Of a stretch of DNA of 64,000 bases, positions 1,757 to 15,086 are shown piece by piece. Origin of the DNA: a virus. How positions within the stretch are numbered: position 1 is the first letter of the stretch; each line of letters begins with the position of its first letter. Under the pieces are notes generated by a model that was not told the origin of the DNA, made no database searches, and saw only the letters and a program-made list of their open reading frames with translations. The stretch spans positions 1-64,000 of IMG/VR virus record IMGVR_UViG_3300035698_016083, one strand, 5' to 3'. Made by a program: the position numbers and the translations under genes.

Positions 1757-4261
1757 CTAGACAAAAAAGTCTTCAAGGGTATCTTTTTCTTCTACCGACC
1801 AACCAACAGCTTCTAATATCTGTGTGATAGGAACAATAAACGATTTTTCAAATTGCATATTATAATCAATATAATCATCCAGATTTAATTCTTTTGGTAA
1901 GAAGTCAGGAAATGCAACTACATTTGATTTAACTGGATTTGGTAACAAAAGATATGAGAATTTAATCTTATTACCGTTTCGAATTATTTCATACTGCTTA
2001 TCAAGTTTGGCCTTTTCAATTGCCTTATTAAAAGTCATACTCGCGCGTACCTGAATAGGTGTACCCTTTTTATGACCCCAGTTACCTTTTAACCATTTAG
2101 TGATGTTATTCACGCCGCGTGGGAATGCCACTTTATCTGCTGGTAGGCTTTTAAACTCTCTCTTGAAATCCTGAATGAATTTTCGTGTTTCTTCCTCAGA
2201 ACCATTAATAATGATTTTGAATACTTCTTTAAATTTATCACGAACCACTTCTGGTGTTGATGATTTAATGGCCTCAATTCCAACCATTTTAAGCTTAGGT
2301 TCAGCGTATCGAACACCTTCATTATCGAGTACATTAAGAATATATCTTTTCTTGGCGACCCAAATACCCTTATCGGCTATTGCCTCTCTGTCCATAACCA
2401 TTCTATTCTCATAAGAATTCATGGCTACGTGAAGTTCGGCAAATGCTTTTTCAAAAATAGGTTCAAAATGTTTTTCACATATTTTTGATAGTGCATCAAC
2501 CGGATTTTTTGGATTCAGTTTTTGAACTAGTGGATCAAAGTTAACATAAAGAGAGTCGGTGTCAATAGCAATTACATAATCAACATCTTTTGTTTTCATC
2601 ACTTTATTCATTTCAAGATTTAGTTCTTTCTCTGCCCATTGAATAGCTAACTGACCTGTTAATGTGATACCCTCGGCAATCGCAAGATCAAAATATCTGA
2701 AATACTTATTACCAATAGCACCATAAAAGCTGTTCATGAGAATTTTGATCGCCTGCTGTTCATTATATAGCTGACCTTCAAGATTAACAAGTTCTTTTGT
2801 TTTATTTTTTTGAATCTCTTTTTGGGTATCAAGCATTTTACCCTTAACGATTTTTCTTCGACCATAATAGTCTCGAATAACTTGTGGGAATACACCTTCA
2901 AAATCATTTGTAAATGTTGCACCATTACAAGCTACCGACATACCCTCCACTTTAGGTATATTACCGGCAAGATAATGTGCTACTCCACCATATATTGGGT
3001 TTGATGGATCATTTATAATTGACTCTGGTGACATGTTCCACTGTGCAATAATATTAGGATAAAGTGATGCAAGGTCAAATGAAACCACCCAACGGTATTG
3101 ACCCGGTTTGACTTCTTTTACATACCCGCCAGGATATTCTACTGACCCGTGAAACTCTGCTGGTGGGACAGCGATTTTTTCAAGACTTAGTTTTCGATGA
3201 ATAATAGAATCCCATATCCCGGTTGTACCAAAAATAACAGAATAATTAACACCACCCATATATGCGATTTGAAAAGCCAATTCTATAAATCGATCGACCT
3301 CTTCCATCTCTTCGATGATTTGAACATCTCGAATGTTATAGTCAATATATTTTTGTGGATTTTCGTGATATAATTTTTGGAGGGATCCATACTCTTCGTA
3401 TGACAGTTTTTTCTTGCCGAGAACCACGTGCGCGATGTAATCGAGTTTATTTGATTCTTGAGCACCATATTTGTAAACACCGAACTTGGTGAAGAGATCA
3501 TAATAATCTACCTGCTCCACACCATAAATTTCATACGTAGTCATATCTTTATTTTTAAACCCAATATTTTTGAGATTAATAATTGACCACGGTGAAAGTC
3601 TTTTAGCATTTGTTTCTGATGAAATGTTTATAATTCTATTAATAATATATGGTACATCAAATAGACGAATGTTCCACCCAGTTATTACATCGGGATGATC
3701 ATTTTCCCAGAATTGTAAAAAGCTTTCTAATAATTCAAATTCATTATCAAATTTACGGTAATGAATAATTTCGCCAGGCTTTATTTTTAATTCGGTTTTT
3801 TTGTAATCGTAATTTCTATCGCCCCAAACTTCCCAAATAGAGCTTTTGTTGCTCTTAATGGTTATAGCTGTGATTGGATATGCAGCATCTTCCGGAAACG
3901 GAAATCCTTCTTCAGAATGAACTTCGATATCAATGTCAGCAACATTAATAATATTCTTGTTATATTTTATTTCACCTGGGAAATATTCTGCAATAAACTG
4001 TTGAACATAATTTGTGTTACCATATACTTTAAAATTTTCAATACCTTTATATTTTTCAATAAATTCTTTTCCTGCCCACATATTATCTAGCTGAACAGGT
4101 TTCACATTCTCACCGTGTAGGGTTTTCCACCCAAAGTCGTCTTTGGATTTTAAAAATAATGTTGGTGCAAATGGTATTTTCTTTTGAACGCGTTTTCCGT
4201 CTTTGTAACCTCTATAAAGAATATGGTTACCTTTGCGTTGGACGTTAGTGTAAAATTCCAA
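1757..4261 (-). CDS. 43: DNA polymerase, family B (T4 gp43-like)
   Basis: This is the replicative polymerase with 3'-5' proofreading, 834 residues (T4 gp43 has 898). The exonuclease Exo I motif is ADIDIEV (109-114, with D111 and E113). Polymerase motifs follow in the usual order: DLASLYPNI, KILMNSFYGAIGN and AIDTDSLYV. The C-terminus DTLEDFFV is a clamp-binding tail like that of T4 gp43. The start is a TTG at 4261: an in-frame TAG lies six codons upstream, a Shine-Dalgarno-like AAGGA sits 6 bp before the TTG, and the N-terminus EFY..VQRKGN aligns with the start of T4 gp43. A TTTACA-17-TATAAT promoter lies about 30 bp upstream. It should act with the gp45 clamp and gp44/gp62 loader encoded to the right. 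Confidence 0.97.
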   Translation of the reverse strand: MEFYTNVQRKGNHILYRGYKDGKRVQKKIPFAPTLFLKSKDDFGWKTLHGENVKPVQLDNMWAGKEFIEKYKGIENFKVYGNTNYVQQFIAEYFPGEIKYNKNIINVADIDIEVHSEEGFPFPEDAAYPITAITIKSNKSSIWEVWGDRNYDYKKTELKIKPGEIIHYRKFDNEFELLESFLQFWENDHPDVITGWNIRLFDVPYIINRIINISSETNAKRLSPWSIINLKNIGFKNKDMTTYEIYGVEQVDYYDLFTKFGVYKYGAQESNKLDYIAHVVLGKKKLSYEEYGSLQKLYHENPQKYIDYNIRDVQIIEEMEEVDRFIELAFQIAYMGGVNYSVIFGTTGIWDSIIHRKLSLEKIAVPPAEFHGSVEYPGGYVKEVKPGQYRWVVSFDLASLYPNIIAQWNMSPESIINDPSNPIYGGVAHYLAGNIPKVEGMSVACNGATFTNDFEGVFPQVIRDYYGRRKIVKGKMLDTQKEIQKNKTKELVNLEGQLYNEQQAIKILMNSFYGAIGNKYFRYFDLAIAEGITLTGQLAIQWAEKELNLEMNKVMKTKDVDYVIAIDTDSLYVNFDPLVQKLNPKNPVDALSKICEKHFEPIFEKAFAELHVAMNSYENRMVMDREAIADKGIWVAKKRYILNVLDNEGVRYAEPKLKMVGIEAIKSSTPEVVRDKFKEVFKIIINGSEEETRKFIQDFKREFKSLPADKVAFPRGVNNITKWLKGNWGHKKGTPIQVRASMTFNKAIEKAKLDKQYEIIRNGNKIKFSYLLLPNPVKSNVVAFPDFLPKELNLDDYIDYNMQFEKSFIVPITQILEAVGWSVEEKDTLEDFFV

Positions 4262-7467: not shown

Positions 7468-8079
7468 ATGGCTAAAAAGAAAAGTATTCATTATGTCAAT
7501 AATGCTGAATTTTCAAATGCTGTAGTAGAATATGTTAAGACCGTTAAGAAAGCAAAGGAAGAGGATTTACCACTTCCACAAGTGACTGAATATATCGCTG
7601 TATGTTTTCTTAAAATCTGTGAAGGATTAAGTCACAGAGGTAATTTTATCGGATACACCTTTAGAGAAGAAATGGTAATGGATGCAGTTGAAAACTGTCT
7701 CAAAGCCATAGAAAATTATAACATTGAAGCTGCTACACGCACAGGAAAACCAAATGCATTTTCGTATTTCACGCAAATCAGTTGGTACGCATTTCTCAGA
7801 CGTATTGAGAAAGAAAAAAAACAAACAGATATCAAGCATAAATTTATTGCCGAATCGGGTATAGAATCCCTCACGGTGACAAATCCAGACGACGTAGCGC
7901 AAAATGCAGTCGTCTCTAATTTTGTAGATACATTAAAAAGTCGCATCGATAAAATTAAAGGTTTTGACGATGATTTGAAAAAATATAAGAAAGAAAAGAA
8001 ACCTAAGAAACCAAGGAAGAAGCGAGTTCGCAAACCTGTGGTTAAAAGGGATTCAGATCTAGAGGAATTTTTAGAATGA
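7468..8079 (+). CDS. 55: late-gene RNA polymerase sigma factor (T4 gp55-like)
   Basis: A 203-residue protein with the gp55 pattern: IHYVNNAEF at the N-terminus (T4: YNYVNNKEL), ICEGLSHRGNFIGYTFREEMVMDAVENCLKAI cut into helices matching sigma region 2, then NAFSYFTQISWYAFLRRIEKEKK. A Lys/Arg-rich linker (about 160-192) leads to a C-terminal DSDLEEFLE, equivalent to the SLDFLYE tail by which T4 gp55 binds the gp45 clamp. The protein directs host RNA polymerase to TATAAATA late promoters, several of which are in this window. AAGGAA precedes the ATG, and an early-type promoter lies about 30 bp upstream. It is coupled by ATGA to the next gene. Confidence 0.94.
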   Translation: MAKKKSIHYVNNAEFSNAVVEYVKTVKKAKEEDLPLPQVTEYIAVCFLKICEGLSHRGNFIGYTFREEMVMDAVENCLKAIENYNIEAATRTGKPNAFSYFTQISWYAFLRRIEKEKKQTDIKHKFIAESGIESLTVTNPDDVAQNAVVSNFVDTLKSRIDKIKGFDDDLKKYKKEKKPKKPRKKRVRKPVVKRDSDLEEFLE

Positions 8080-12117: not shown

Positions 12118-12145
12118 TTAATACTTAAATTATGTTAGGGTGAAC

Positions 12146-13084
12146 ATGTCTGAAGAATTTCTATGGGTAGAAAAATATAGACCCCGTAAGGTGGAAGATA
12201 CCATTTTACCAAAGGGACTTAAGAAAACCTTTCTTGAATTGGTTGAAAATAAAGAATTACCAAATATGATCTTTTTTGGTGGTCCCGGTATTGGTAAAAC
12301 AACCGTAGCCAAAGCTCTTTGTGAACAATTAGAATTGGATTACATTGTTGTAAATGGATCTGAAGATGGGAATATTGATACGCTTAGGGGTAGAATCAGA
12401 CAGTTCGCTTCTACCGTTTCGCTTCAAGGTGGAATGAAAGTAGTTATTCTTGATGAAGCAGACTATTTGAATGCTCAATCAACACAACCCGCTCTTCGTG
12501 GTTTTATTGAAGAATTCAGTAAAAATTGTAGATTTATTCTTACTGCGAATGCCATAAATCGAATTATCCCAGCGCTTCATAGTCGATGCTCGGTGTATGA
12601 TTTTAATACTCCGAAGACTGAAGTACCTGCTCTTGCAGGAGAATTTATGACAAGGCTCAAAGGTATATTGGACAAAGAAAATGTCAAATATGATAATAGA
12701 GTTTTAGCAGAATTAATTAAAAAGTATCACCCCGATTTACGTAGGGTGATAGGTGAATGTCAAAGATATGGGATTTCGGGTGAAATTGATAAACATATTC
12801 TTGTTAATCTGAGTGATAGTCAATTTGAAGACCTCTTTAAATTTCTTAAGAAGAAAGATTTCACTGGGGTAAGAAAATGGGTGGTTAATAATATTGATAT
12901 TGACTCCTCAGCTATTTTTAGAGGCATTTATAATAACATCTCTAAGAAAATTACACCCGCGAGTATCCCAGCAATGGTTCTTATTATCGCGGATTATCAA
13001 TATAAAGCTGGGTTTGTAGCAGACCAGGAAATCAATACTGTTGCGTGTTTAATAGAAATAATGACAGACGTGGAGTTTAAATAA
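12146..13084 (+). CDS. 44: clamp loader ATPase subunit (T4 gp44-like)
   Basis: A 312-residue AAA+ protein (T4 gp44: 319). It has the N-terminal WVEKYRPRKVED clamp-loader signature, Walker A GGPGIGKTT (45-53), Walker B ILDEAD (101-106), sensor 1 LTANA and the arginine-finger SRC motif (146-148). With gp62 it opens and loads the gp45 ring using ATP. The ATG at 12146 has AGGG five bases upstream; a GTG six bases earlier is in frame but less well placed. Its stop abuts dexA. Confidence 0.97.
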   Translation: MSEEFLWVEKYRPRKVEDTILPKGLKKTFLELVENKELPNMIFFGGPGIGKTTVAKALCEQLELDYIVVNGSEDGNIDTLRGRIRQFASTVSLQGGMKVVILDEADYLNAQSTQPALRGFIEEFSKNCRFILTANAINRIIPALHSRCSVYDFNTPKTEVPALAGEFMTRLKGILDKENVKYDNRVLAELIKKYHPDLRRVIGECQRYGISGEIDKHILVNLSDSQFEDLFKFLKKKDFTGVRKWVVNNIDIDSSAIFRGIYNNISKKITPASIPAMVLIIADYQYKAGFVADQEINTVACLIEIMTDVEFK

Positions 13085-13740
13085 TGACAGTAAAAGCATA
13101 TGAAGCATCAGACAATGTTGTAGTATACGATTTTGAGACACTTTCACAGGAAGCAACAAAGGGTGTTGTAGTATCCCTTGCTCTTCTTAATTTCAACGAG
13201 GATAGATTTCTTGCAAATCCTTACACATATGAAGGACTTTTGGCTAAGACCAAAATGATCAAATTTGATGTGAAAGATCAGGTTGATAACTATGGTCGTA
13301 AGGTTAATCGAGACACTCTAAATTGGTGGAAGAAGCAGTCACCAGAAGCAAGAAAACAGCTTATCCCATCAAAAGAACGTGACGTTCCTATTACTAAACT
13401 TTATGATTGGTTTGTTGTAAATACAATGAAATCAAACATTAAGAAAGTTTATACACGCGGTAATACGTTCGATCCGATTTTCATGACTTATCTCATGATT
13501 GATATTAATAAGCCTGAACCATATCCGTGGTGGACAATCCGTGATACCCGCTCGATGATTGATGGTATGACTTATGGATCTGATATTAGTAACAAATTTA
13601 TCCCAGATGGATTAAAAGAAAAATTCATCGCGCACGACCCGCGACACGATATTGTTATGGACGTTATGAGACTCCAGGTATTGGCGCAGTCGATTGAAGG
13701 TTATGAACCATCAAATCTAGATGATGAAATCCCGTTCTAA
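13084..13740 (+). CDS. dexA: exonuclease A (DexA-like, DEDDh)
   Basis: A 218-residue 3'-5' exonuclease of the DEDDh family. The first acidic motif is YDFETLS (D16, E18). The middle has KFDVKDQ and LNWWKKQSPEARK, as in T4 DexA (227 residues). The last motif is AHDPRHDI-MDV. T4 DexA degrades single-stranded DNA ends. The protein ends in NLDDEIPF (211-218), which resembles the acidic C-terminal tip of bacterial SSB proteins and is not in T4 DexA. The ATG overlaps the end of gene 44 and the stop touches the next gene, so it is in the clamp-loader operon. Confidence 0.9.
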   Translation: MTVKAYEASDNVVVYDFETLSQEATKGVVVSLALLNFNEDRFLANPYTYEGLLAKTKMIKFDVKDQVDNYGRKVNRDTLNWWKKQSPEARKQLIPSKERDVPITKLYDWFVVNTMKSNIKKVYTRGNTFDPIFMTYLMIDINKPEPYPWWTIRDTRSMIDGMTYGSDISNKFIPDGLKEKFIAHDPRHDIVMDVMRLQVLAQSIEGYEPSNLDDEIPF

Positions 13741-14061: not shown

Positions 14062-14316
14062 ATGGGCGATCTTCTATATCTTTATACCCAAGATAATTGT
14101 AAGCACTGTGATCTTCTAAAGTCTAAATTAGAAGAATATGGCATGATCTACATTTTATATAATATTTCCGAAGATGCTAATGCTAAAGAGTATCTTCGAA
14201 ATATGGGTCATAAGACGGTGCCACAATTATATTTTAGAAATTATCATCTTTCGGCTATCCCTACAGAGGATATCACAGAAGAATATTTGGAGATGAAAAT
14301 TGGTGAAGCCATTTGA
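14062..14316 (+). CDS. glutaredoxin
   Basis: An 84-residue thioredoxin-fold protein with the redox motif CKHC (C13, C16) and the cis-proline segment KTVPQLYF near residue 58. The size is that of T4 NrdC and phage glutaredoxins. Such proteins donate electrons to ribonucleotide reductase, supplying dNTPs; no reductase genes are in this window. It overlaps the gp62 start. An N-terminal LYLYTQDNC is typical of the family. Confidence 0.9.
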   Translation: MGDLLYLYTQDNCKHCDLLKSKLEEYGMIYILYNISEDANAKEYLRNMGHKTVPQLYFRNYHLSAIPTEDITEEYLEMKIGEAI

Positions 14317-14680
14317 TTACCTAAATTCGATTAATACTTCAAAGAAAGATATCATGATTGATGATCTTTCTGAAAAATCGTATAACGCATATCTCATTAA
14401 TCGAGGTCTTTCTTATTTCATAGACACAATTCTCATAGCAAATGAGATGAATGCGAACCCACATCTTGATAAAAAACTACAGTATCATTTTTTCATAAAT
14501 ACAATTAGAAAACGTAAAAGATTTTCTAAGTGGCATAAGGCTACTAAGCAGGTTGATTTAGAGATTGTTAAAGAATATTATGGCTATAGTAATGAAAAAG
14601 CTCGCCAAGCTTTAACTCTTTTGAGTAATGAACAGCTAATTGAATTGAGAAAAAAGGTAAATAAAGGTGGAAAACAATAA
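14303..14680 (+). CDS. 62: clamp loader small subunit (T4 gp62-like)
   Basis: A 125-residue helical protein with PFDYLNSI, NAYLINRGLSYFIDTILIANEMN, RKRKRFSKWHKA and YYGYSNEKA, the pattern of the short gp62 of marine T4-like phages; T4 gp62 has 187 residues. It forms the pentameric loader with four gp44 subunits. The GTG at 14303 has GGAG ten bases upstream; a TTG at 14300 is also in frame. Three genes separate it from gp44, but the 62-regA order of T4 is kept. Confidence 0.88.
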   Translation: MKPFDYLNSINTSKKDIMIDDLSEKSYNAYLINRGLSYFIDTILIANEMNANPHLDKKLQYHFFINTIRKRKRFSKWHKATKQVDLEIVKEYYGYSNEKARQALTLLSNEQLIELRKKVNKGGKQ

Positions 14681-14714
14681 TAATAATGACCCTTACGAAT
14701 GGGATCCAAGCAAA

Positions 14715-15086
14715 ATGCTTGAGATCACATTACTTACACCAGATGATTTTTTAAAGGTAAAAGAGACTCTTACGCGTATTGGGGTCGCGTCACGAAAAGA
14801 TAAAAAATTATTTCAATCGTGTCATATACTTCACAAACAGGGCAGATATTTTATAGTTCATTTTAAAGAGCTATTTTTACTTGATGGTAAAAAATCTAAT
14901 CTAGAAGTAAATGATATAGAACGAAGAAACACTATTGCTACTCTTATGTCAGATTGGGGATTACTTGAAATAGTAGATCCTTCAATGACGAAAGATCTAG
15001 CCCCGTTAAGACAGATCAAGATTCTGGCTCACCGTGAAAAGGGAGAGTGGGAATTGTGTCCCAAATATAACATAGGAAGAAAATAA
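14715..15086 (+). CDS. regA: RegA translational repressor
   Basis: A 123-residue protein closely matching T4 RegA (122): MLEITLLTPDDFLKVKETL at the start, then FQSCHILHKQGRYFIVHFKE, a DWGLLEIV segment and a C-terminal PKYNIG. T4 RegA binds the initiation regions of many early mRNAs, including those of the clamp and clamp loader, and represses itself. I chose the ATG at 14715 because it gives the T4 length; the same frame is open back to a GTG at 14667, whose Shine-Dalgarno touches the start codon. Confidence 0.94.
   Translation: MLEITLLTPDDFLKVKETLTRIGVASRKDKKLFQSCHILHKQGRYFIVHFKELFLLDGKKSNLEVNDIERRNTIATLMSDWGLLEIVDPSMTKDLAPLRQIKILAHREKGEWELCPKYNIGRK

Follow-up and report, generated by a model that had tools for sequence, protein, structure and literature searches.

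The window analyzed here is a 64 kb stretch out of a viral record of 67,247 bases. Profile searches recognized a series of T4-like phage genes in it, namely gp43, UvsY, UvsW, gp55, gp44, gp62, and RegA. Three further genes, taken from their order to be gp45, gp46, and gp47, have homologues with a matching arrangement in two related records. Judged by gp43, the closest named phage is C48C1 of the Kyanoviridae (48.5%). The gene in focus lies between gp44 and gp62, whereas dexA of T4-type phages is found near dda. All features discussed below are collected in Table 1.

Table 1. Positions of the features discussed in the text. Plain numbers refer to the window; numbers preceded by an L handle refer to the respective locus.
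Feature	Position	Strand	Evidence or remark
dexA-like gene, DEDD-type 3'-5' exonuclease, 218 aa	13084..13740	+	profile, tblastn, model, fold match
Codons of probably flexible C-terminal tail, residues 206-218, after last long helix (186-205)	13699..13737	+	AlphaFold2 model
SSB-Ct-like tip codons, DDEIPF	13720..13737	+	translation; DxIPF conserved in lineage
gp44 clamp-loader gene, directly upstream of dexA	12140..13084	+	phrog_168, E 2e-116; used in lineage tree
gp62 clamp-loader subunit	14300..14680	+	PF16790, phrog_225; used in lineage tree
RegA translational repressor	14667..15086	+	PF01818, E 4e-43; used in lineage tree
gp43 DNA polymerase	1757..4261	-	phrog_262; tail TLEDFFV, clamp-type, contrasts with dexA
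gp55 late sigma factor	7468..8079	+	phrog_234; tail SDLEEFLE, clamp-type, contrasts with dexA
CobS-like AAA_5 ATPases of related phages	L060:171-1310, L017:238-1395	+	ends DDTDEPVPF and EDDVQVPF
gp32 with acidic DxLSYF segment	L174:1366-2304, L175:1369-2289	+	
RadD-like helicase loci	L246:4836-6524 (-), L422-L501; L534:301-1941, L535:298-2076, L536:301-2052		
ERF annealase loci	L222:12671-13483 (-), L502-L533		
Pam3 gp34-like protein	L206:6801-7598	-	PF23977; DD[DE]IPF end
Small proteins of 73-75 aa	L205:2619-2846, L230:1276-1497, L243:2980-3207	-	DDDIPF end

The first-pass annotation had named this gene a DexA exonuclease, and this identity is borne out by profile searches (phrog_255 exonuclease, E 3.4e-37; PF16473, E 4.4e-15), by tblastn to T4 DexA (29.5% identity), and by structure: with the AlphaFold2 model (mean pLDDT 91.6) as query, Foldseek ranks T4 DexA 8kel first (E 1e-15, TM 0.74). 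The only convincing solved-structure matches of the DexA family profile are likewise T4 DexA, entries 8kel and 8ken. Residues D16, E18, D130, H184, and D189, which we take to be the acidic and histidine residues of a DEDDh active site, are invariant in 21 DexA rows including T4 and also in 45 aligned DexA rows. Because of this invariance in 45 homologues, activity is expected, and the window protein has probably kept its exonuclease function. The dexA reading frame is interrupted in one contig (L073, L410); other contigs carry intact copies.

The window protein terminates in ...EGYEPSNLDDEIPF*, with SNLDDEIPF as its last residues, so that the NLDDEIPF ending reported earlier can be read directly from the translation. 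The accompanying statement that T4 DexA lacks such an SSB-like end is also correct, its C-terminus being DPLSLPTKR. A DNA pattern for DDEIPF followed by a stop codon occurs once in the window compared to 0.00 expected occurrences (100 shuffles); the tip is not a chance ending. In the model, confidence drops along the tail, with a mean pLDDT of 78 and 50 for the final two blocks and values below 50 for residues 215-218, and the tail is probably disordered.

DexA relatives were gathered by homology in four sets, of which 80/92, 80/446, 37/37, and 80/81 were kept; a further 12 stretches were retrieved with a single pattern that combined a DexA end with a subsequent [DE]xIPF. The 277 dexA loci yielded 103 unique C-termini, window included, with six short or cut loci excluded. 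A [DE]xIPF ending is present in seven of the 103 and absent from the other 96 sampled relatives, most of which end at or near the last helix. Conservation of the tip in DexA of related phages, proposed earlier as a check, was thus found within one lineage and fails outside it. Apart from the window, the tip-bearing ends read FGDEIPF (L008), LVDEIPF (L018 and L022), LIDSIPF (L074), and LIDEIPF (L091 and L096). The contigs of the last two were first retrieved via the tip pattern and found again via peptide patterns outside the tail. None of the 16 DexA proteins read from named phages (T4, RB69, KVP40, and 13 others) ends in PF, a small sample next to the 1,739 phage records with a DexA relative identified by tblastn. 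Two candidates for a wider distribution were discarded: the single chromosomal relative found in bacteria ends in LQYFIQE, and DexA of phage X1, for which the alignment reaches the last query residue, ends in PPWKE. Plasmids contributed 43 records of DexA relatives, with at most 28.4% identity in the best 10 of 43.

Among 4,638 ORFs of at least 60 aa from 194 records, a redundant set collected around dexA and partly fetched on account of the tip, an [ILVM]PF end is present in 26, comprising 24 dexA copies and two CobS-like AAA ORFs. D.[ILV]PF endings in two lineage members (147 and 157 kb) amount to two of 1,155 ORFs (at least 50 aa, from overlapping pieces), both of them dexA. The CobS-like AAA_5 ATPases L060 and L017 (Table 1) possibly carry the same kind of tip.

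How the tip is distributed over the phages was followed in several trees. With the tails removed, a DexA tree of 98 rows groups seven tip rows, all but the window, in one clade (SH-aLRT 98), and the window stands at a fork without resolution beside it; among single relatives, the one it resembles most, L002 (62-64% identity), lacks the tip. In the gp44 tree, a hardly supported branch (12) has all seven tip rows, including the window, on the same side. A concatenated tree was based on gp44, gp62, RegA, and, where present, gp45 from 79 phages, reduced to 59 rows by dropping near-copies. Here, the window, in basal position, and five tip phages form one clade (SH-aLRT 91), which contains no tipless member and outside of which no tip occurs in the 59 rows. 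The DexA data do not reject a single tip clade (p-AU 0.559 for 61 DexA rows, with far phages and near-copies dropped). A separate gain in the window, as hinted by the fork in the DexA tree, is unneeded given the gp44 and concatenated trees and the p-AU value. Taken together, the concatenated clade and the p-AU result indicate that the tip marks one phage lineage and most simply has a single origin. Read from these trees, it would most simply have been acquired once in a marine T4-like phage lineage and then kept by selection.

Six DexA proteins of this lineage show pairwise identities of 49-73%, with 71 of 195 ungapped columns invariant. On the tree, the codons for the tip residues D, I, P, and F have undergone at least nine nucleotide changes and no amino-acid change, a count from only six proteins that are related by descent and were chosen for carrying the tip; if these codons changed freely, about a quarter or less of the changes (0.19-0.26) would be silent. 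Because third codon positions vary and the dexA stop codons include TAA, TAG, and TGA, overlap with the following gene does not account for the tip. Linker length varies as well, the window protein having 7-8 extra residues ahead of the tip compared to the other members. The simple reading of these alignments is that the tip is under purifying selection at the protein level within the lineage.

The conserved residues are those by which bacterial SSB C-termini (SSB-Ct) are recognized. The SSB-Ct of E. coli is MDFDDDIPF (PMC10238739). Its pockets are described as taking up the terminal Phe side chain, holding the carboxylate by basic residues, and contacting an upstream Asp, and deletion of the Phe or a change of the Pro (to Ser) is reported to abolish or greatly weaken binding (PMC10164576). 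The lineage-invariant residues of the DexA tip match this list: the terminal Phe with its free carboxylate, the Pro, and the Asp. In the window protein, the C-terminal Phe with its free carboxylate is preceded by Pro and Ile. Further upstream, the window has the acids DDE, four other members have DE, and L074 has a sole D (DSIPF). All six lineage proteins carry L or F at position -7, comparable to Phe in E. coli SSB; in tips that lie flush with the helix, this residue may belong to the helix. Even the tetrapeptide DIPF is reported to bind ExoI and RecO, albeit weakly, ∼10- to 20-fold below the octapeptide (IC50 ∼102 and ∼45 micromolar, respectively, vs. 4.5-4.7; PMC10143822).

The 13-residue low-confidence tail modeled for the window protein would suit docking at a distance. 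In the other members, the tip is almost flush with the last helix: in the L096 model it lies only five residues past it, at a pLDDT of about 50-70, and such short spacing may hinder docking, full SSB function being reported to need a linker of 11-20 residues (PMC10164576). The first-pass suggestion of an SSB-like tip stands in part, backed by the pocket-read residues, the low-confidence tail, and purifying selection within the lineage, and restricted by the tipless relatives outside it. The window protein itself is no SSB, its Pfam domain being the exonuclease and not the PF00436 OB-fold. We regard the description of its end as an SSB-Ct-like docking tag as well supported by the sequence, with binding itself a prediction.

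The tag was also compared with proteins of the phage. Clamp-binding tails of T4 are described as short, with acidic and hydrophobic character (PMC2988020). The corresponding tails of the window and two relatives read TLEDFFV, TLEDFFG, and TLEAFF for gp43 and SDLEEFLE, SDLSEFFI, and SDLSGFLE for gp55, all of an LxxF[FL] type, which the DEIPF tail of the window DexA with its invariant Pro does not match. The gp32 of two lineage members ends in TLSYFAKLAAG, and that of G001, G002, C48C1, and S-SSM7 has a DxLSYF-type tail, which disfavors mimicry of the phage's own SSB; a window gp32 was not found within the 67 kb record. Phage-encoded SSB or chi as partner of the tip was dismissed, since bacterial-type SSB (PF00436) and chi (PF04364) are matched in none of three phage records. 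Because the tag is unlike the clamp and gp32 tails and no bacterial-type SSB was found in these three records, it appears to imitate the SSB of the host and not that of the phage, a resemblance judged on the SSB tail of E. coli. The acidic DxLSYF segment of gp32 (two loci in Table 1 and two named Kyanoviridae) resembles the LxxF[FL] clamp-type tails. An internal LDDDIPY is present in G001 gp32 and absent in G002. G001 also gave a UDG match, which falls short of the family cut-off.

Similar tips occur on other phage proteins. A scan of viral contigs for DD[DE]IPF* returned at least 120 stretches, 48 of which fall into one similarity cluster that contains numerous SSB-like proteins; the remainder is spread over many small groups. 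Two known enzyme families, as assigned by Pfam, bear the tip: a helicase with ResIII, Helicase_C, and zinc-ribbon domains, which in our view resembles RadD, and an ERF annealase ending in DDDIPF or similar. Relatives of both were fetched by core sequence and their unique complete C-termini read. All 74 RadD-like SF2 helicases end in P[FWY] and have two or more acids among their final seven residues, and 71 of them end in [IV]P[FWY]. Of the 26 ERF annealases, 25 end in P[FWY] and 18 in [IV]P[FWY]; as the queries were picked for having the tip, these numbers reflect conservation, not frequency. The helicase of Pseudomonas phage JG054 ends in DFDDDIPF, which are also the last eight residues of E. 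coli SSB, and the ends in Roseobacter phage CRP-902 and Rhizobium phage RHph_TM3_3_14B read FSFEDIPF and EWDDEVPF. Because E. coli RadD is reported to own an SSB-Ct pocket (PMC10238739), self-docking is possible for the RadD-like phage helicases. A Pam3 gp34-like protein and four relatives also have the DD[DE]IPF end, and three phage proteins of 73-75 aa, one of which (L205) was scanned and has no Pfam match, are candidates for free-standing SSB-Ct mimics. We tentatively propose, at somewhat less than even odds, that phages have repeatedly copied the host SSB tip onto diverse DNA enzymes, with DxIPF as a portable entry ticket to the host SSB network for enzymes that are no SSBs themselves.

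For the window protein, we propose with a probability of about 0.58 that the DexA end is a genuine SSB-Ct-type docking motif, gained once, that recruits DexA to host SSB partners. The terminal Phe and carboxylate would insert into the SSB-Ct pockets of SSB partners in the host, candidates being ExoI, RecQ, RecG, RecO, RadD, PriA, or chi type. The T4 enzyme is described as a dimer or tetramer switching between both forms (PMC12153337). If the window DexA is oligomeric like it, each particle would present two to four tips, which would add avidity where single tips may be weak. Most likely, the tip would bring the exonuclease to ssDNA sites and helicases of the host that normally operate with SSB, where it could help in host-DNA breakdown or 3'-end processing; targeting of this kind would fit a role in scavenging. 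Motif, conservation, and distribution are observations, whereas binding, partner, multivalency of the window DexA, and benefit are predictions.

The tip could instead serve mainly as a decoy that fills the SSB-Ct pockets of ExoI, RecQ, and PriA, with the nuclease activity incidental; blockade of repair proteins is the version closest to the first-pass suggestion. The motif count, the clade, and the codon changes apply equally to this idea, and an oligomeric decoy displaying two to four tips would profit from avidity too. An active nuclease is unnecessary for a decoy, though, and the five active-site residues are invariant in all 45 DexA rows; moreover, host SSB is abundant and multivalent and thus hard to outcompete. 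We consider a pure blockade unlikely and favor recruitment, which is at least as likely on the sequence evidence, with pocket occupation against host SSB as a by-product or second use. Only slightly less probable is that the IPF tail packs on the DexA surface or a dimer partner and tunes oligomerization or activity, as the dimer/tetramer switch of T4 DexA (PMC12153337) and the flush tips of most lineage members would allow. The low confidence of the tail in the monomer models, as judged on pLDDT, argues against such packing, and an IPF fixed despite varying linker length is a better fit to a detached pocket.

It seems improbable that the DexA tail is a variant of the gp43, gp55, and gp33 C-termini that bind gp45 and tethers DexA to the sliding clamp. 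The genes gp45, gp44, and gp62 neighbor dexA, and the T4 clamp-binding tails are similar in length and in their acidic and hydrophobic character (PMC2988020), but the gp43 and gp55 tails in the window and its two relatives follow LxxF[FL] instead of DEIPF with its invariant Pro. Least credible of all is an ending without function, inherited by common descent. The few distinct members and the 96 of 103 unique relatives without a tip would agree with it; the at least nine silent against zero amino-acid changes in four codons, a tip fixed at 49-73% pairwise identity, and the variable third positions and stops, by which overlap with the next gene does not dictate the ending, would not. Recruitment via an SSB-Ct-type motif hence remains our preferred explanation. 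In bacterial genome maintenance, SSB-Ct serves as the hub motif, and drug development is directed at the pockets that receive it. If the proposal is true, a selected nuclease tip that the phage's own SSB does not use would represent natural molecular mimicry of the SSB hub. The recurrence of the tip on helicases and annealases offers a rule by which phage proteins that tie into host repair can be searched for.

In the open-licence PMC literature, we found no paper on DexA or another phage nuclease with an SSB-type tip, and the terms C-terminal, C-terminus, and SSB do not occur in the main text of the 2025 T4 DexA paper (PMC12153337). The window protein resembles T4 DexA (PDB 8KEL, 8KEN; phrog_255) in fold, catalytic residues, and a length of ∼220 aa. 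With the bacterial SSB-Ct it shares the terminal D-[DE]-I-P-F, the free carboxylate, a hydrophobic residue at -7, and a probably flexible tail; it differs by carrying the tip on an exonuclease and not on an OB-fold SSB, by a tail of at most 13 residues instead of a long disordered linker, and by fewer acids. The SSB of phage HK620, with the tail NDYPPF, is reported to recruit Sak4 through its SSB-Ct-like last six residues, but this is a true SSB with a phage protein as partner (PMC5928155). The chimeric PriB-SSBc likewise places an SSB tail on another protein and is reported to stimulate the PriA ATPase 22-fold, compared to 15-fold by PriB alone, but it is engineered and not natural (PMC8509808). 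E. coli ExoI (3C94, the ExoI/SSB-Ct complex), at rank 42 in the Foldseek list of the window DexA, is also a DnaQ-type 3'-5' exonuclease tied to the SSB tail; ExoI, however, receives the tip, whereas the window DexA presents it.
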